Shown here: positions 34,832 to 61,593 of the stretch, piece after piece
Position numbering within the stretch: the stretch's first letter is position 1
Layout of the letters: each line of letters opens with the position of its first letter
Assembly (NCBI GenBank): GCA_022843585.1
Contig: JALHNJ010000007.1
Span: forward strand, 62,001-126,000
From: Chitinophagaceae bacterium
GTDB taxonomy: Bacteria; Bacteroidota; Bacteroidia; Chitinophagales; Chitinophagaceae
Length of the DNA: 64,000 bases
Reading direction: 5' to 3'
Made by a program: the position numbers and the translations under genes
The notes under the pieces: model-generated
What the model was told of the DNA's origin: nothing
What the model saw: only the letters and a program-made list of their open reading frames with translations
The model's database searches: none

Positions 34832-34957
34832 ATGAAAAATAAGTTTCTTTTAGCAGTACTTCTTTTCGCAGTTGTTGCCACTATAACATCCTGCTATTCA
34901 TCCCGCAAATCGGGCTGCCCAACCAATGTAAACTCAACTGGCAAATTCAGAGGCTAA
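34832..34957 (+). CDS. 41-aa small lipoprotein
   Basis: From the ATG at 34832: MKNKFLLAVLLFAVVATIT, lipobox SC at ~20-21, then YSSRKSGCPTNVNSTGKF and RG. An in-frame upstream ATG at 34748 would add 28 polar residues before the signal and is unlikely. Such tiny Bacteroidota lipoproteins with one extra Cys and a C-terminal basic tail recur; function unknown. It lies just upstream of the his leader, but a promoter separates them, so it is probably not part of that operon. Confidence 0.6.
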   Translation: MKNKFLLAVLLFAVVATITSCYSSRKSGCPTNVNSTGKFRG

Positions 34958-35056: not shown

Positions 35057-35087
35057 TTGGAACAAGAATAAATAATCCCTACTTTTG
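35057..35087 (+). promoter_or_regulatory. Promoter of the his operon leader
   Basis: TTG (35057-35059), 20-nt spacer, TACTTTTG (35080-35087), a full match to the Bacteroidota TTG-N~20-TAnnTTTG pattern. Transcription would start near 35091-35094, only 3-6 nt before the leader ATG at 35097. Confidence 0.7.
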
Positions 35088-35096
35088 ACTTCAATC

Positions 35097-35153
35097 ATGA
35101 CAACATACACACATAATCATCATCATTTCTTGCTCTCTACGAGTAGGCCATGA
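35097..35153 (+). CDS. his operon leader peptide (18 aa, four His codons)
   Basis: The reading frame is ATG to TGA, product MTTYTHNHHHFLLSTSRP. His codons are at 35112-35114 and 35118-35126. The ORF is followed by a terminator and then hisG, the expected arrangement of a histidine attenuator. With a promoter whose +1 lies 3-6 nt upstream, translation would be nearly leaderless. Codons 16-18 hold the antiterminator arm (35142-35149), so a ribosome at the TGA would hide it, while a ribosome stalled at the His codons would not. Confidence 0.8.
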   Translation: MTTYTHNHHHFLLSTSRP

Positions 35154-35188
35154 GGGTATTATGCTTAAATCATAATAAAGGGCTTACT
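35142..35188 (+). promoter_or_regulatory. his antiterminator pairing
   Basis: AGTAGGCC at 35142-35149 can pair with GGCTTACT at 35181-35188 (8 bp, one G-U), which is the 5' arm of the terminator stem. The two structures are mutually exclusive. Confidence 0.65.
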
Positions 35189-35206
35189 AAACAGTAAGCC
35201 CTTTTT
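35177..35206 (+). terminator. his operon attenuator terminator
   Basis: AAAGGGCTTACT (35177-35188), loop AAAC, AGTAAGCCCTTT (35193-35204), then TT: a perfect 12-bp stem and T-run 28 nt before hisG. Confidence 0.88.
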
Positions 35207-35233
35207 ATTTGTAATACATCCAACAAACAAATT

Positions 35234-36094
35234 ATGCAGGAAATATTAAGAATAGCGGTACAAAAATCGGGTCGCCTTTATGAAGGCTCCATGAAACTGC
35301 TCAAAGAATGTGGTATTGAGATCAGCAATGGCAACAATCAGCTAAGAGTAACAGCCGCCAATTTCCCGGTAGAGGTTTTCTTTTTGCGGGATGATGATAT
35401 TCCTGAATATGTACAGGATGCCGTGGCAGATATTGGTTTCGTAGGTGAAAATGTAGTAACCGAATCGAATAAACAAACAGATAGTATTGAAAAACTGGGT
35501 TTTGGAAAATGCCGTCTTTCAATTGCAGTACCTAAAAACGGGAACATGCGAACAGTGAGTGACCTGGAAGGAAAAAAAATTGCTACCAGTTACCCATTCA
35601 TTCTTTCCAACTTTCTTAAAGAAAGAAATATAACCGCTTCCATTCATGAAATAAGCGGCTCAGTAGAAATTGCTCCGAAGATCGGACTAGCGGATGCGAT
35701 TTGTGATTTGGTTAGTTCGGGTAGTACCCTTTTTACCAATGAGCTGAAGGAAATGGAAGTTATACTATCATCAGAAGCAGTATTGATCAGCAACAAAGAA
35801 TTAAGTGCAAATAAAAAGATCATACTTGAAAGTCTTTTATTCCGCATCCGCTCAGTAAAAAAAGCCAGAAATAATAAATATGTGCTGCTGAATGCTCCTA
35901 ATTACAAACTCGATACCATTTGCAGTTTACTACCCGGTATGAAAAGTCCAACAATTCTGCCACTGGCAGAATCCGGTTGGAGTTCAGTTCATTCTGTGAT
36001 CAACGAAAGTGATTTTTGGAATGTGATTGAGAAGCTGAAAGTCGCAGGAGCACAAGGAATATTAATTATACCAATTGAAAAGATGATCGTATGA
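35234..36094 (+). CDS. hisG: ATP phosphoribosyltransferase (long form)
   Basis: 286 aa. First step of histidine biosynthesis: ATP + PRPP to phosphoribosyl-ATP. The length and the C-terminal domain (from ~residue 212: YVLLNAPNYKLDTICSLLPG) mark the long, allosteric form that needs no HisZ. Motifs include VAVPKNGNM-like SIAVPKNGNMRTVSDLEGK and SGSVEIAPKIGLADAICDLV (PRPP/substrate loops). It begins 28 bp after the attenuator and overlaps hisD by 4 bp. Confidence 0.96.
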   Translation: MQEILRIAVQKSGRLYEGSMKLLKECGIEISNGNNQLRVTAANFPVEVFFLRDDDIPEYVQDAVADIGFVGENVVTESNKQTDSIEKLGFGKCRLSIAVPKNGNMRTVSDLEGKKIATSYPFILSNFLKERNITASIHEISGSVEIAPKIGLADAICDLVSSGSTLFTNELKEMEVILSSEAVLISNKELSANKKIILESLLFRIRSVKKARNNKYVLLNAPNYKLDTICSLLPGMKSPTILPLAESGWSSVHSVINESDFWNVIEKLKVAGAQGILIIPIEKMIV

Positions 36095-37368
36095 TGAAAG
36101 TTTTTACATACCCGGACAAGAAAAAGTGGAACAAAATAATTCAGCGGCCTGTTGCTGATAATGCCGAACTAGGAAAAACTGTAAATAAAATTTTGGAAAA
36201 AGTAAGAAATAAAGGCGACAAAGCTGTTTTGCAGTACACCAAAGATTTTGATGGCGTAAAACTAAAATCACTTTCAGTCACCCCGGATGAAATAACGAAT
36301 GCAGATAAATTAGTTAGCAATGAATTAAAAACTGCTATTCAACAAGCAAAAAAAAATATAGACACATTTCATGTAGCTCAAAAAGATGAAGTAAAAATAA
36401 TTGAAACGATGCCTGGCGTAGTTTGCTGGCGTCAGTCAATAGGTATAGAAAAAGTCGGGCTATACATTCCCGGTGGCTCTGCCCCACTCTTTTCCACGGT
36501 ATTGATGCTGGCGGTGCCTGCACAAATTGCAGGATGTAAGGAAATTATTCTTTGCTCCCCACCATCAAAAGATGGAACAATTGATCCGGCTATTATATAT
36601 GCTGCAGCTATTTGTGGCGTCACAAAAATTTATAAAGTTGGTGGTGTGCAGGCTATAGCTGCAATGGCGTATGGAACGGAAACAATTTCAAAGGTGTTTA
36701 AAATATTTGGCCCCGGTAACCAATATGTAACACAGGCTAAACAACTAGTGCAGCAGCAAGCTGTAGCTATAGATATGCCCGCAGGCCCCTCGGAAGTATT
36801 GGTGATTGCCGACGAAACAGCCATACCGGAATATGTAGCAGCCGACCTTTTATCACAGGCAGAACATGGGCCGGACTCCCAGGTGATTTTAATAACCACC
36901 AGTGCTGCATTCGCTACAGCAACTACAGCAGCGATTGAAAAACAATTGCAGGATCTACCAAGAAAAGGTATTGCAAAAAAAGCATTGGAAAATAGCAAGC
37001 TGGTAATTGTTGCAACTATAACAGAGGCAATTGAGTTATCAAACCTATATGCACCGGAACACCTGATACTTTCCTGTGCCAATGCAATAGAAGTTTCAAA
37101 ACAAGTGATTGCAGCTGGTTCTGTATTCATTGGCAACTATTCCCCTGAGAGTGTGGGAGATTATGCCAGCGGCACCAACCATACTTTGCCAACCAATGGT
37201 TATGCTGCTATGTACAGCGGTGTTTCATTAGATAGTTTTACCAAAAAGATCACCTATCAGCAATTAACAAAAGAAGGTTTAACAATGATCAGCAATACTG
37301 TAATGGAAATGGCAGAAGCAGAAGGATTAACAGCCCATAAGAATGCAGTGGCTATTCGTTTAAAATAA
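36091..37368 (+). CDS. hisD: Histidinol dehydrogenase
   Basis: 425 aa. It oxidises histidinol to histidine with NAD+ and zinc. Typical segments are YIPGGSAPLFSTVLMLAVPA, GPGNQYVTQAKQLV, IDMPAGPSEVLVIADE, AEHGPDSQVILITT, and GSVFIGNYSPESVGDYASG with GTNHTLPTNGYA at the C-terminus. The zinc ligands (Q..H, D, H) are in these segments. Start codon overlaps the hisG stop (ATGA); the second Met, 3 bp later, is equally possible. Confidence 0.96.
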   Translation: MMKVFTYPDKKKWNKIIQRPVADNAELGKTVNKILEKVRNKGDKAVLQYTKDFDGVKLKSLSVTPDEITNADKLVSNELKTAIQQAKKNIDTFHVAQKDEVKIIETMPGVVCWRQSIGIEKVGLYIPGGSAPLFSTVLMLAVPAQIAGCKEIILCSPPSKDGTIDPAIIYAAAICGVTKIYKVGGVQAIAAMAYGTETISKVFKIFGPGNQYVTQAKQLVQQQAVAIDMPAGPSEVLVIADETAIPEYVAADLLSQAEHGPDSQVILITTSAAFATATTAAIEKQLQDLPRKGIAKKALENSKLVIVATITEAIELSNLYAPEHLILSCANAIEVSKQVIAAGSVFIGNYSPESVGDYASGTNHTLPTNGYAAMYSGVSLDSFTKKITYQQLTKEGLTMISNTVMEMAEAEGLTAHKNAVAIRLK

Positions 37369-37372
37369 TAAC

Positions 37373-38425
37373 ATGGAATTCAACTTAGATAATTTAGTAA
37401 GAGAGAATATTAAAAGGATGACTGCTTATTCATCTGCACGGCATGAATACAGCGGAACGGCAAGCATTTTTTTAGATGCAAATGAAAATTCATTTGGCTC
37501 CCCGCTGTCTGAAAATTATAATCGCTACCCCGACCCTTTACAATTAAAGCTAAAAGAAAAATTAAGTAATATCAAAGGTGTTCCTTTTCAAAATATTTTT
37601 TTAGGGAATGGCAGTGATGAAGCAATTGATCTGCTGTTTAGAATATTTTGTGAGCCGGGAAAAGACAATGTTATTATCTTCCCTCCTACTTATGGCATGT
37701 ATGAAGTATGTGCTGAAATGAATAATGTGACAGTAAAAAAGGTATCGCTTACAGAAAATTTTCAGTTAGATCTGAGTGCCATAGAAAAAGCTATTGATGC
37801 AACTACAAAATTAATTTTTGTTTGCTCCCCAAATAATCCCACTGGCAACAGTATTAACAGAAATGATATTGAAGTAATACTGAATAATTTTGATGGGCTT
37901 GTAGTGATTGATGAAGCTTACATTAATTATGCGAAGCAAAAAACATTTATACCGGAGCTAACAGAGTATCCAAATCTTGTTATACTGCAAACATTGTCCA
38001 AAGCCTGGGGTTTAGCAGGACTTAGACTAGGCATGGCTTTCGCCGGACAACCGATTATTGATTACCTAAACAAAGTAAAATATCCCTATAACATTAATAC
38101 GGCTACGCAGAATTTAGCTATTGAGGCATTGAGCAATATTTCCAGCATTAACAACTGGACAAAAACTACCGTAGAGCAAAAAGAGTGGCTGAAAGAAGAA
38201 TTATTGGAGCTGGAATTTGTGCAGACCGTTTATCCCTCTGATGCTAATTTTATTCTGGTGAAGATGACAGATGCTAAAAAAGTTTATAATTATTTATCGG
38301 CTAAAGGTATAATCGTAAGAGATCGTTCCAATATTATTTTATGTGATGACTGTCTTCGCATAACTATTGGAACACCGGATGAGAACAAACAATTGGTTGA
38401 AGCACTAAAACTTTACGGCGCATGA
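37373..38425 (+). CDS. hisC: Histidinol-phosphate aminotransferase
   Basis: 350 aa PLP-dependent aminotransferase. It has [47 protein letters not shown] and the PLP-lysine motif [14 protein letters not shown]. The C-terminal Arg in [11 protein letters not shown] recognises the substrate phosphate. Gap of 4 bp after hisD and a 4-bp overlap with hisB. Confidence 0.95.
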
Positions 38426-39561
38426 AAAAAATATTATTTATTGATAGAGACGGCACATTGATAAAAGAAGCCCCTCCTACTTACCAATTGGATTCATTTG
38501 ATAAACTGGAATTTTACCCGGATATGTTTAGCTGGATGAAAAGAATAGCCACTGAATTGGATTTTGAATTAGTGATGGTAACCAACCAGGATGGATTAGG
38601 AACGGCTTCTTTCCCGGAAGAAACATTCTGGCCTGTTCAAAATTTTGTAATAAAAAGCTTGATAAACGAGGGAATAAACTTTGCTGAGGTATTTATTGAT
38701 AAGACATTCCCCAACGAGAATGCTCCAACCCGCAAACCCGGAACGGGGATGTTAACTCAATACATAAATAACTCTGCTTACGATTTAAGAGGCTCATTTG
38801 TCATTGGTGATAGAATAACGGATGTGCAACTAGCAAAAAATTTAGGTTGTAAAGCGATCTGGCTAAACAATGATGCTAATCTTGGAGCAGCCGAAATAAA
38901 TGATGATTTGCTAGCCCTTCAACCCACTATAGCACTAGAGACAATTGCATGGAAAGATATTTATGAATACCTGAAATTGGGTGAACGGGTAATACAACAT
39001 GACAGAAATACGAATGAAACAAAAATTGCGGTCCTTATAGATCTTGGTGGAAAAGGCATATCACAAATAGACACCGGCTTGAATTTTTTCAATCATATGC
39101 TGGAGCAACTTAGCCGCCATAGCGGTATTGATCTGTCTGTAAAAGTAAACGGTGATTTACAAATAGACGAGCACCATACAATAGAAGATACAGCGATTGC
39201 TTTAGGCGAAGCATTTTCGTTGGCGTTAGGTAATAAAATCAGTATTGAACGGTATGGTTTTACCCTGCCAATGGATGATTGCTTAGCACAAGTAGCTATT
39301 GATTTTGGTGGCCGGAGCTGGCTGGTATGGGAAGCTGATTTTAAAAGAGAAAAAATTGGTGACATGCCTACTGAAATGTTTTATCATTTCTTCAAATCAT
39401 TTGCAGATGCCGCCAAATGTAATCTGAATATAAAAGCGGAAGGTGATAATGAACACCATAAAATAGAATCGATCTTTAAAGCTTTGGCTAAAGCTATTAA
39501 AGGTGCGATTAAAAGAGATGTAAATAATTTGCAATTACCAAGTACAAAGGGAGTGCTATAG
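38422..39561 (+). CDS. hisB: Bifunctional histidinol-phosphatase / imidazoleglycerol-phosphate dehydratase
   Basis: 379 aa. The N-terminal ~165 residues are a HAD phosphatase (FIDRDGTLI with nucleophile Asp; [22 protein letters not shown]). The C-terminal part is the IGP dehydratase, with metal motifs [20 protein letters not shown] and [12 protein letters not shown]. Both halves look complete. The fused form is as in enterobacteria and many Bacteroidota. The stop is immediately followed by a palindromic repeat. Confidence 0.95.
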
Positions 39562-39590
39562 TGTCTGACGTCTCGCAGAGCGTCTGACAC
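39561..39590. repeat. GTGTCTGACG palindrome between hisB and hisH
   Basis: GTGTCTGACG (39561-39570) and CGTCTGACAC (39581-39590) pair at 9 of 10 positions, with CTC/GAG in the centre, followed by TTTT. This is a repetitive-extragenic-type hairpin. It begins on the last base of the hisB stop and may partly terminate or stabilise the operon mRNA. Confidence 0.75.
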
Positions 39591-39635
39591 TTTTATAACT
39601 GGCCTGGCCAATATTAACAATAGCCTGAAGATAAA

Positions 39636-40229
39636 ATGAATACAGTAATAATCAAATACAATTCCGGCAATATCCAATCAGTACAATTTGCATTGGAGAG
39701 AATTGGCATTAATGCAATTGTAACAGATGATGCGGCGCAAATAAAATCAGCAGATAAAGTAATCTTTCCCGGTGTAGGAGAAGCCAGTTCTGCTATGAAC
39801 TTTTTAAAAGAAAGAAAATTGGATGAGCTGATTATATCATTAAAGCAACCTGTACTCGGCATTTGCCTCGGCATGCAATTGCTTTGTAAATATTCTGAAG
39901 AAAATGATACGAATTGCCTCGGCATTTTTGAAAATGTAACAGTTAGAAAATTTCATGCTACTGAAGCAAATTTAAAAATTCCGCAAATCGGCTGGAACAG
40001 TATCAGCAACCTGCAATCTGGTCTGTTTAAAAACATAGACAACAACAGCTATTGTTATTATGTACATGGATATTATGCAGAACAGAATGAGCATACAATC
40101 GCTACAACAGAATATGGAATAGCATATAGTGCAGCTATTCAAAAGAACAATTTTTACGGCGTGCAATTCCATCCAGAAAAAAGCGCAGCGGTAGGTGAAC
40201 AAATTTTAAAAAACTTTTTAGCTATATAA
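39636..40229 (+). CDS. hisH: Imidazole glycerol phosphate synthase, glutamine amidotransferase subunit
   Basis: 197 aa class I glutaminase. Nucleophile in LGICLGMQLL, catalytic His and Glu in GVQFHPEKSA, and KVIFPGVGEASSAMNFL at the start. It supplies ammonia to HisF. It is separated from hisB by a 74-bp spacer with a hairpin and followed by hisA. Confidence 0.95.
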   Translation: MNTVIIKYNSGNIQSVQFALERIGINAIVTDDAAQIKSADKVIFPGVGEASSAMNFLKERKLDELIISLKQPVLGICLGMQLLCKYSEENDTNCLGIFENVTVRKFHATEANLKIPQIGWNSISNLQSGLFKNIDNNSYCYYVHGYYAEQNEHTIATTEYGIAYSAAIQKNNFYGVQFHPEKSAAVGEQILKNFLAI

Positions 40230-40234
40230 ATACA

Positions 40235-40951
40235 ATGACAATAATTCCTGCAATAGATATTATAGAAGGTAAATGTGTAAGATTAACAAAAGGCGATTAC
40301 AGCCAGAAAACCATTTACAATGAAGACCCTTTGGAAGTTGCTTTACAATTTGAAGATGCTGGTTTAAAGCGATTGCATCTTGTTGACCTTGATGGCGCAA
40401 AAGAAGGTGATGTAAAAAACTGGAAAGTACTGGAGAAAATAGCCAGTAAAACTAAGTTAGAAATTGATTTTAGCGGTGGCATCAGTAGTCAAAAAAACCT
40501 TGAAATTACTTTTGAATCAGGAGCAGCTTATGCTGCTGTTGGAAGCATTGCTGTTAAAGATGAACTTACTTTTACCGGATGGCTATTAGCATTCGGACCC
40601 GAACGATTTATTATAGGTGCTGATGTTAAAGATGAAATAATTGTAATCAAAGGATGGACAGAAACAACCACTTTGACAGTTTCTGAATTGATTTCTACAT
40701 ACAAAACAAAAGGAGTAAAACAGTTCTTTTGCACGGATGTAAATAAAGATGGGTTGTTGCAAGGCCCTTCCCTGTCACTCTATAAAAAGATCATGAACGA
40801 GCATCCTTCCATTGATCTGATAGCCAGCGGTGGTGTTTCAACTATTAAAGAATTAGAAGAGTTGAGGGAAGCAGGCTGCCATGGAGCCATTATTGGAAAA
40901 GCGATTTACGAAAACAGGATTTCTTTATCTGACCTGAAGAAATTTATATAA
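40235..40951 (+). CDS. hisA: ProFAR isomerase
   Basis: 238 aa TIM barrel. [20 protein letters not shown] and the [13 protein letters not shown] segment at the start, [16 protein letters not shown], and a C-terminal [18 protein letters not shown] with [13 protein letters not shown] are the hallmarks. Catalytic Asp residues are in PAIDI and CTDVNKDG. One-base overlap with hisF. Confidence 0.95.
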
Positions 40952-41706
40952 TGCTAACAAAACGAATCATACCATGTCTTGATATTAAGGATGGCAGAAC
41001 TGTAAAGGGCACCAACTTTATTGAGTTGCGTGATGCCGGCAACCCGGTTGAATTAGCCATGCGTTATTGCGAAGAAGGTGCCGACGAATTGGTTTTTCTT
41101 GACATTACTGCAACTACCGAAAAAAGAAAGACCCTGGCAAAACTGGTAAGAAAAATTGCTACGCACATAAATATTCCATTTACTGTGGGTGGCGGTATCA
41201 GTACCGTGGAAGATGTAAGTGTATTATTAGAAAATGGTGCCGATAAAATTTCTATCAATACATCTGCCGTAAAAAATCCGCAATTGATAAATGAGCTTGC
41301 AAAAAATTTCGGTAGCCAGTGTGTAGTAGTTGCGATTGATGCAAAAATTATTGATAACGACTGGAAAGTAGTAACACATGGCGGTCGCAATGCAACCACC
41401 CTCCTTACTATAGATTGGGCAAAAGAAGCTACTGAAAGAGGTGCTGGTGAATTATTATTAACTTCTATGGAAAACGATGGAACCAAAGTAGGGTTTGCTC
41501 TTGAGATTACTAAGGAAATAACCAACAGTGTTACTGTTCCGGTAATTGCTTCCGGGGGTGCAGGGAGTATGGAACATTTCGCCGATATATTTCAACAAGC
41601 TAATGCAGATGCAGCACTGGCAGCAAGTATTTTTCATTTTAAAGAGATAGCTATACCTGATTTAAAACAATATTTAAGGAATCAAAACATCGCTGTTCGG
41701 TTATGA
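40951..41706 (+). CDS. hisF: Imidazole glycerol phosphate synthase, cyclase subunit
   Basis: 251 aa TIM barrel. [52 protein letters not shown] and [17 protein letters not shown] are conserved. Asp11 (LDIKD) and the second catalytic Asp ([11 protein letters not shown]) are present. The stop is overlapped by the ATG of the next small ORF (ATGA). Confidence 0.96.
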
Positions 41707-41867
41707 TCTTCATTGTTTTCATATCATTGGCCGCTACTTACTTTTTTATACAGTATTTTGAAAATCGCCATAGTCAAAGAATAAAAGAGCAACGGGAAAG
41801 AAGACAAGAAGCGTTCAACAACTTACTCACTACTATTCGAAAAAACGAAAATTCGGAAAAAATATAA
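41703..41867 (+). CDS. 54-aa membrane protein within the his operon
   Basis: The [22 protein letters not shown] (residues 1-19) is one transmembrane helix, followed by a highly charged tail ([15 protein letters not shown]) ending ENSEKI. Its ATG overlaps the hisF stop as ATGA and it ends 10 bp before hisIE, so it is translated within the operon. It has no similarity to a His enzyme. A role in holding a His enzyme or in signalling at the membrane is inference only. Confidence 0.7.
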
Positions 41868-41877
41868 ACCAAATAAT

Positions 41878-42474
41878 ATGAAACCTGATTTTTCAAAATA
41901 TAGCGATAGGCTTGTTCCGGCTATTATACAAGACAGTATCAGCCAAAAAGTATTAATGCTGGGATTCATGAATGAAGAAGCATTGGAAAAAACAAAAGAA
42001 GAAAGCAGGGTTACTTTCTATAGCCGAAGTAAACAACGCCTCTGGACAAAAGGTGAAACTTCAGGCAATTATTTAAACGTAAAAGAAATAATAGCTGACT
42101 GCGATAACGATACCTTGTTAATCAAAGTTCAACCTGATGGACCTGTATGCCATACAGGAGCAGACACATGTTTTAATGAAAATAATTCTTCTTTTAGTCT
42201 TGAAAAACTGGAACAAATTATAGCCGATAGAAAAAATAATGCTTCAGAAACTTCTTACACTTCTTCTTTATTTTCAAAAGGCATCAATAAAATTGCGCAG
42301 AAAGTAGGTGAAGAAGCTGTGGAGCTTGTTATTGAAAGTAAGGATGATGATAAAGAAAAATTTTTAGGCGAAGCTGCTGACTTGCTATTCCATTATCTCA
42401 TTTTATTAAATGCAAAGGGGTATTCATTAAATGACGTAGAACAGATATTAGCTGCCAGGCACAAAAATAAATAA
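41878..42474 (+). CDS. hisIE: Phosphoribosyl-AMP cyclohydrolase / PR-ATP pyrophosphatase
   Basis: 198 aa fusion. HisI part: SRSKQRLWTKGETSGNYL and the zinc site DCDNDTLLIKVQPDG, PVCHTGADTCF. HisE part: KIAQKVGEEAVELVIESK and FLGEAADLLFHYLILL. It does the second and third steps of the pathway. It is the last his gene; convergent with the kinase gene 4 bp away. Confidence 0.95.
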   Translation: MKPDFSKYSDRLVPAIIQDSISQKVLMLGFMNEEALEKTKEESRVTFYSRSKQRLWTKGETSGNYLNVKEIIADCDNDTLLIKVQPDGPVCHTGADTCFNENNSSFSLEKLEQIIADRKNNASETSYTSSLFSKGINKIAQKVGEEAVELVIESKDDDKEKFLGEAADLLFHYLILLNAKGYSLNDVEQILAARHKNK

Positions 42475-61221: not shown

Positions 61222-61223
61222 AT

Positions 61224-61593
61224 TGTGGAGGCGACCGGAGTCGAACCGGTGTCCAAACATATTCGCCGAAAGCCTTCTACATGTTTATTCAATTTTAGTT
61301 TGTCGGGAATTAACTGGAAAAAGACAACCGATTAATTCCTTAGCTGAATAGGCTTAAGCAACTGGCACAGCCTGCAGTTGCAGCATCTTGTTTTGTTTTT
61401 AAGTCGGCGGCGGGGCGTGGTAACAAGCCAACCTGCCCGGCGGCCCTAATGACTACTTAATCACTGATTAGGCAGCCATGGCATACTGAGTATTGCCATT
61501 TGAGATTTTCGTATTCAGATTAAACTGCTAATTACGCAACGCAGTACATGCTTATACTCTCAAAGATCTATGCTGTCAAAACCAAACGCCCCC
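61224..61593 (-). ncRNA. ssrA: Transfer-messenger RNA
   Basis: About 370 nt. The 5' end GGGGGCG (61593-61587) pairs with CGCCTCC (61233-61227) as a 7-bp acceptor stem with one G-U, and GGTTCGACTCC forms the T-loop near the 3' end. The 5' domain has TTGGTTTTGACAGC, a tmRNA signature. The tag frame at 61497-61468 reads GNTQYAMAA then TAA, ending in AA as usual. It frees stalled ribosomes together with SmpB. The 3' terminal A-C-A after the acceptor is encoded, CCA is not. Downstream a strong terminator is shared with the LytTR gene. Confidence 0.92.

Follow-up and report, generated by a model that had tools for sequence, protein, structure and literature searches.

The stretch analysed here (the window) comprises 64,000 nucleotides of a Chitinophagaceae bacterium (GenBank assembly GCA_022843585.1, contig JALHNJ010000007.1, positions 62,001 to 126,000 of the forward strand) and carries a histidine biosynthesis (his) operon preceded by a short leader. 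The operon is intact, with 8/8 his proteins scoring above the cut-offs of NCBIfam equivalog or equivalog-domain models, and hisB and hisIE are fused genes within it. The hisG start lies at 35234, and a terminator hairpin with its T tract ends ~28 nt upstream. The leader open reading frame (ORF) begins 9 nt after the TACTTTTG box of its promoter. An earlier note, made from the sequence alone, had described a Bacteroidota-type promoter (TTG, 20 nt, box), an 18-codon ORF with four His codons (one, then three in a row) and a perfect 12-bp terminator before hisG. On direct reading, the promoter coordinates were right to the base, the His codons were found at codons 6, 8, 9 and 10, and the terminator was confirmed at 35177-35188/35193-35204, where AAAGGGCTTACT, the loop AAAC and AGTAAGCCCTTT are followed by the T tract. 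We consider it highly probable (roughly 0.88) that the his operon is controlled by this leader through ribosome-mediated transcription attenuation. Sequence and comparison show the component parts, what they can pair with, that they are conserved and that they change together; the start site, leader translation, coupling, termination and the response to histidine are inferred.

The folding of the window leader was computed with a ribosome stalled, at the stop codon, or absent, the footprint being taken as 15 nt beyond the P-site base. Strand b (AGTAGGCC; strands a to f are listed in Table 1) pairs with GGCTTACT (35181-35188) in 8 bp with one G-U, as the earlier note had proposed, and of all folds of 35138-35191 the one with this b:e pairing around the c:d hairpin has the lowest energy (-13.9 kcal/mol); 35138-35191 is the stretch exposed by a ribosome at the last His codon before the terminator 3′ arm is made. 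With the ribosome at the stop codon, e was left without a partner. The ribosome-free leader (35093-35215) had a minimum energy of -34.6 kcal/mol (z-score -5.68), lower than 200/200 dinucleotide shuffles and owed mostly to the terminator; in this fold the terminator forms, 35112-35126 pairs with 35150-35163, and most of b lies in a local hairpin inside. The outcomes predicted for these three states are read-through, termination and termination. In the earlier scheme, the opposition of b:e and the terminator stood, but the pairing of the His codons with 35150-35163 had been overlooked; this a:c protector helix is a new addition that completes the three-state scheme.

Under the proposed mechanism, RNA polymerase would start only a few bases ahead of the leader ATG. 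A ribosome would load on the nearly 5′-terminal AUG, where a Shine-Dalgarno site would find no space, and trail the polymerase. When histidyl-tRNA is scarce, the ribosome would stall at His codons 6-10, covering a and leaving b free; in this state c:d and b:e would form, the terminator would be blocked and the operon transcribed. When histidine is plentiful, the ribosome would reach the stop codon and cover b, e:f would form and transcription would end. With no ribosome, a:c would form, keeping b from e, and the terminator would form.

Table 1. Coordinates of the features of the his leader and operon in the window.
Feature	Position	Strand	Basis or remark
-33 element TTG, Bacteroidota-type promoter	35057-35059	+	Direct reading
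-7 element TACTTTTG	35080-35087	+	Direct reading; 20-nt spacer after TTG
Leader ORF MTTYTHNHHHFLLSTSRP, 18 codons and stop	35097-35153	+	ATG 35097, TGA 35151-35153
His codons 6, 8, 9, 10 of the leader ORF	35112-35114, 35118-35126	+	Direct reading
Strand a, His-codon region	35112-35126	+	Partner in the ribosome-free fold: strand c with flank (35150-35163)
Strand b, antiterminator 5′ strand AGTAGGCC, codons 16-18	35142-35149	+	Computed folding, relatives
Strand c, ATTATG	35158-35163	+	Alternative partners: a (CATAAT, 35112-35117) and d
Strand d, CATAAT	35171-35176	+	Pairs with c within the antiterminator hairpin
Strand e, terminator 5′ arm AAAGGGCTTACT	35177-35188	+	35181-35188 pairs alternatively with b
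Strand f, terminator 3′ arm AGTAAGCCCTTT (35193-35204) and T tract (35202-35206)	35193-35206	+	
Operon hisG, D, C, B (NB fusion), H, A, F, IE	35234-42474	+	ORFs and NCBIfam models

His-rich leaders were defined as ATG-started ORFs of 8-45 amino acids with at least three His in eight residues. Two fragments aside, a HisG search of a near set of 97 genomes, the window's own included, gave 37 full-length genes. Upstream of 37/37 of these full-length hisG genes lay a short ORF rich in His (at least three in eight residues); their upstream regions comprise L001-L030, L359-L364 and that of genome G074 (L146). The L364 leader has a GTG start and lies ~330 nt upstream of hisG, and no terminator was found in L359-L361 within the upstream stretch inspected. 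The leaders (e.g., MKKYTHNHHHFLLCQGRP, MKFSTTHIHHHHTYLRR and MNINVHTHHHHHFLPRG) have little in common beyond the His run.

Among 395 genomes drawn from the phylum, hisG was present in 332. The wider sample combined the relatives, 80 named contigs and regions from the 395-genome HisG search, of which the best 30 loci were used, plus 80 hand-picked for family spread among the matches listed; it is not random, and the hand-picked regions favour close HisG matches. Its 213 non-identical upstream regions became 211 on removal of L112 and L119 (duplicates of L023 and L029). An ATG-started His-rich leader was present in 190/211 (192/213 before removal), while such ORFs arose by chance in 132/4260 mononucleotide-shuffled copies and in 6/213 antisense copies. 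By family code, leaders were found in f25 (23/23), f24 (7/7), f37 (12/13), f28 (8/8), f23 (5/5), f18 (5/5), f50 (5/7), f31 (3/4), f29 (2/3) and f30 (1/3), and none with an ATG start in f39 (0/3), f68 (0/3), f44 (0/2) or f46 (0/1). At least one leader occurred in 19/23 family codes with a close HisG match, although some single cases (f30, f42) are doubtful, and leaders occurred in 10/10 sampled family codes of the window's class and in several codes beyond. As the count was restricted to ATG starts, possible GTG families are undercounted (in f44, L243 has a GTG ORF).

A hairpin with a T tract followed the leader in 171/190 cases. This, together with the 12-bp hairpin and T tract ~28 nt before hisG in the window, argues against translational attenuation, in which the hairpins would act on the translation start of hisG and not on transcription. 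Some known attenuators do have a hairpin hiding the ribosome site instead of a terminator (PMC9413887), and in f23, f63 and 5/8 of the f28 leaders no intrinsic terminator was found by our criteria; we nevertheless regard translational attenuation as improbable. In the f23 regions L196-L200, His-rich leaders stand before hisG with a terminator by criteria in 0/5, and in some of them the T runs seem to follow just weak, A+T-rich hairpins, which may reflect another mode of termination.

A His leader and an antiterminator, on whose presence in relatives the earlier note had staked its reading, are both found there. Pairing between a leader tail and its own terminator arm averaged -12.9 kcal/mol, with 167/171 at -8 or lower; the averages were -8.8 (54% at -8 or lower) when the arm came from another family and -7.2 (35%) when the tail was shuffled. 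On average a tail paired better with its own arm than with 84% of foreign ones, and in 32/171 better than with all of them. Tail and arm sequences differ between families yet remain paired: GGTAGGCC with GGCTTACC in the Chitinophagaceae-dominated pool, TCAAGCGA with CGTTTGA in f25, GCGCCGG with CCCGGCG in f37, and AGGTAG with CTACCT in part of f18. With a simulated ribosome at the last His codon, b:e was in the minimum-energy fold of 158/171 leaders (shuffled 186/513); with the ribosome at the stop codon, it was in 1/171 (shuffled 149/513).

Within the pool (n = 103; L096, whose arm lacks the core, was left out), the pair 35142:35188, A-U in the window, is G-C in 60 leaders, G-U in 26, A-U in 8 and other in 9. 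The pair 35146:35184, G-U in the window, is G-U in 57, A-U in 43, G-C in 2 and unpaired in 1, and 35144:35186 is U-A in 96, C-G in 3 and other in 4. The 75 distinct b:e combinations hold 595/675 standard pairs, compared with 578.5 +/- 4.0 when arms were shuffled (0/2000), although the register was chosen for maximal pairing and the observed value is thereby favoured.

Between the last His codon of the run and the first b:e pair the median distance is 13 nt (n = 104, middle half 12-14; 15 in the window), and in the pool b often touches the stop codon or runs into it. A ribosome covers about this length ahead of its A site, and the placement of b is hard to explain except with the ribosome as ruler.

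The a:c helix is seen in part of the relatives. Its mean energy in the pool was -10.82 kcal/mol, compared with -9.06 for partners permuted within the pool (reached in 0/5000) and -5.6 kcal/mol for a shuffled control, and the c-d stretch folded at -4.31 compared with -2.03 when shuffled. In free RNA, a:c was in the minimum-energy fold of 108/171 leaders (shuffled 183/513), including the window, 63/104 pool leaders and 15/23 of f25; the f24 and f25 leaders possess a:c. When a:c and b:e were taken together over 46 aligned leaders, 54 cells had changed on both sides, compared with 28.2 +/- 5.0 expected, and the pairing score collapsed once partners were slid by one to three columns.

Several results weigh against attenuation as proposed, or against its generality. 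The antiterminator (-13.9) is weaker than the terminator (-16.7), and switching would thus depend on folding order. In free RNA, b:e wins in 62/171 leaders, close to the shuffled rate (164/513), and the termination state without a ribosome is therefore not uniform. The computed fold with a stalled ribosome contained b:e in 0/7 of the f24 leaders, and f37 lacks a:c (-3.35 compared with -3.14 when shuffled). No more than 72/171 leaders have an own arm that outperforms 90% of the foreign ones. Of the five measures of co-change taken over the 46 aligned leaders, two were not above shuffles (pairs changed on both sides, 7 compared with 6.2; further pair types, 21 compared with 21.2). The earlier note had looked to compensatory changes at 35142-35149/35181-35188 for a decision. 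Some exist, but they are few, the b:e core being nearly invariant within the pool: only 7/54 of the doubly changed cells fall in b:e, and a test of b:e corrected for the HisG tree leaves 4 independent contrasts for the first position, a number too small to judge by. No ATG leader was found by our criteria in 21/211 regions, and no terminator by criteria in 19/190 leaders, of which L074 was seemingly missed by the T-tract rule. Among divergent hisG genes (E 6e-27 to 2e-56; L247-L269), 4/23 were preceded by a His-rich ORF, whatever its start codon, two of these ORFs probably being chance finds, and the trait thus follows the close HisG type and not the whole phylum as sampled. In six other strong or middling families, a His-rich ORF was found in 4/6.

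Upstream of the promoter lies a plus-strand ORF of 41 codons (34832-34957; MKNKFLLAVLLFAVVATITSCYSSRKSGCPTNVNSTGKFRG) that is lipoprotein-like by eye, and a similar stretch seemingly lies upstream of the L015 leader. The hairpin, which lies ~220 nt beyond the end of this ORF, could belong to it, merely terminating an upstream transcript with the His-rich ORF incidental. Such an arrangement is very unlikely, because a promoter stands between the 41-codon ORF and the hairpin, and because the His ORF, the pairing and the spacing recur jointly in relatives, while shuffled and antisense sequences seldom yield such ORFs.

The attenuator in the window is predicted to be nearly leaderless. Its transcription presumably starts at ~35091-35094, judging by the geometry of Bacteroidota promoters. 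A perfect TANNTTTG box was present within 80 nt of the leader ATG in 141/188 leaders, with 0.06 expected per shuffled region. In the pool this held for 88/106 leaders, in 75 of which the box lay 4-13 nt from the ATG, and a TTG stood 17-22 nt before a TAnnTTTG box in 73/106 His leaders. Where the promoter was full (TTG and box), the ATG was 4-13 nt from the box in 63/73 pool leaders, so the short distance seen in the window prevails in near relatives too, compared with 4/19 control genes that carry such a promoter, taken from 800 kb of sequence in two related genomes (Fisher p 1e-7, overstated because the rows are related). If transcription starts 4-7 nt after the -7 box, the leader 5′ untranslated region (UTR) would be ~0-8 nt long. 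This would be unusual, given that ~3.7% of 5′ UTRs in B. thetaiotaomicron are shorter than 10 nt according to its transcriptome report (PMC7366714).

The trait is not universal, since the distance from box to ATG is longer elsewhere: 16-19 nt for 8/15 of the f25 and 6/7 of the f24 boxes, and 21-33 nt for 7/7 of those in f37. The f25 and f24 distances, the 18/106 pool leaders without a perfect box within 80 nt, and the 10/73 full promoters at least 15 nt from the ATG would suit an attenuator as described that is instead transcribed with an ordinary 5′ UTR from another promoter. The short distance in 63/73 pool leaders, rare in control genes, speaks against it, and we hold this variant to be unlikely, though a good deal less so than the other alternatives considered here.

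The leader was compared with known systems. It resembles the his attenuator of E. coli and Salmonella in having a His-codon leader before hisG and a terminator opposed to an antiterminator, and the operon has the same gene order as that of E. coli (order as given in PMC8305728). It differs in its predicted near-leaderless start and in lacking a match to the Rfam family RF00514 (His_leader), which gave none in the window's genome, although control matches were obtained in E. coli and C. glutamicum, and none in 11 hisG loci, its own included, up to E 5. It further differs in that b:e encloses c:d, whereas in the E. coli layout the antiterminator stands alongside. The features of an attenuator found here are a His leader before a his operon, an intrinsic terminator, and an antiterminator exclusive with the terminator (by computation, f24 excepted). 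From its sequence, the element is predicted to work like the classical his attenuator, yet it falls outside Rfam His_leader by that family's own test.

The proposed his leaders of Firmicutes similarly have short ORFs with three to five consecutive His codons and alternative hairpins (PMC9413887), and leaders before hisS/hisZ have likewise been proposed there (PMC2965389). These belong to few lineages of another phylum, whereas the leaders described here span 19/23 close-HisG family codes and have their own promoter type. In leaderless poly-cysteine attenuators of mycobacteria (Canestrari et al. 2020), too, the message opens with a short ORF that carries runs of the sensed codon, but they are described in other papers as acting on downstream translation, while an intrinsic terminator is present here. 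The Bacteroid-trp motif presumably owes its name to a link with trp genes. This motif (RF01692) is, like the present element, a cis-regulatory candidate of Bacteroidetes (PMC2864571), but it had no match in the window's genome, with control matches in Bacteroides ihuae.

Control by a metabolite- or protein-binding element (riboswitch, T-box or HisR-like repressor), with the ORF incidental, has precedent in that T-boxes and HisR control his genes in other phyla (PMC9413887). The sole Rfam match in the window at gathering score, a comparison that covers RNA families only, was a tmRNA elsewhere, and the 11 hisG loci gave only seven Rfam matches up to E 5, all far below their cut-offs. One of these seven, Thr_leader over the L021 leader (22.6 bits compared with a cut-off of 55), was rejected. 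The His run at a fixed, ribosome-like distance before b also argues against such an element, to which we give hardly any credence.

The Firmicutes his leaders were added in a 2022 study (PMC9413887), the main text of which does not use any word that starts with Bacteroid. In a 2021 study on the his genes of the Bacteroidota superphylum, attenuation is mentioned once, for enterobacteria (PMC8305728). The B. thetaiotaomicron transcriptome report notes short ORFs in long 5′ UTRs that are reminiscent of attenuating leader peptides (PMC7366714), and a survey of leader genes counts those of Bacteroidetes for reinitiation (PMC4833913). Full-text searches of open-licence papers in PubMed Central (PMC), read mostly as lists of matches, brought up no description of a his attenuator in Bacteroidota.

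Ribosome-mediated attenuation may extend beyond histidine. A covariance model (R1), built from 46 His leaders with the terminator as its only structure, had matches in 37/97 genomes, comprising hisG leaders and a second set of places. Of the latter, 18 of 22 listed were examined (G004, G039, G025 and an antisense match in G010 were left out), and L321, L334 and L336 were dropped as spurious after inspection. In 15/18 places there was a Lys-rich leader with 3-5 Lys (e.g., MITMKHTKRNKKHF and MAATKHTKRNKKHP; L320, L322-L333, L335 and L337; 15 genomes). A TAnnTTTG or TAnnTTCG box stood 5-10 nt before the ATG in 14/15, a terminator was present in 15/15, and the gene that followed was asd in 14 and dapA in 1 (NCBIfam cut-offs). 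Tail-to-arm pairing was stronger than the shuffle mean in 13/15, and a:c pairing in 15/15. No Rfam match was found in the four of these loci that were scanned. The window's own genome has such a leader (L320) before asd (contig C1, 423016-423160); among its weak extra R1 matches, only the his and asd leaders looked real on inspection. The asd/dapA leaders are probably lysine leader-peptide attenuators, the sensing of lysine being suggested by the codons and the genes, and their presence suggests a shared design and not a histidine oddity.

On balance, we lean towards the view that Bacteroidota possess an old, module-like class of leader-peptide attenuator, near-leaderless in Chitinophagaceae and kin, with b:e nested around c:d and with an a:c protector, which would serve histidine in all sampled family codes of the window's class and several beyond and, with Lys codons, asd/dapA in near relatives. 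If so, transcription and translation would be tightly coupled in Bacteroidota, and ribosomes would load efficiently on 5′-terminal AUGs without a Shine-Dalgarno site. Lysine, sensed elsewhere by a riboswitch, would here be sensed by the ribosome. Bacteroidota are reported to lack Shine-Dalgarno sequences in general (PMC3155529). As attenuation needs a ribosome close behind the polymerase, frequent leaders make coupling and start-site choice in Bacteroidota directly testable, and one short leader would suffice as the test object. The class would supply a histidine-responsive, and probably also a lysine-responsive, switch, and is a candidate RNA family with no match in Rfam release 15 in the loci scanned.

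A second kind of His leader, ending in or near HHSS (HHLS in L129), was seen in L097, L126, L128, L129, L136, L139, L174, L360 and L361. These have an inverted repeat across the stop codon (e.g., ATTCCTCTT/AAGAGGAAT in L126), and no intrinsic terminator was found in them; the L129 repeat, ATCTCTC/GAGAGAT, looks compensatory. Two loci with a His-rich leader and a hisG 64-65% identical to that of the window (L096 and L108) lie in contigs titled Pyrinomonadaceae and Acidobacteria, labels of another phylum, which may reflect transfer or misbinning. The tmRNA gene in the window lies at 61223-61593 on the minus strand (Rfam RF00023, 111 bits).
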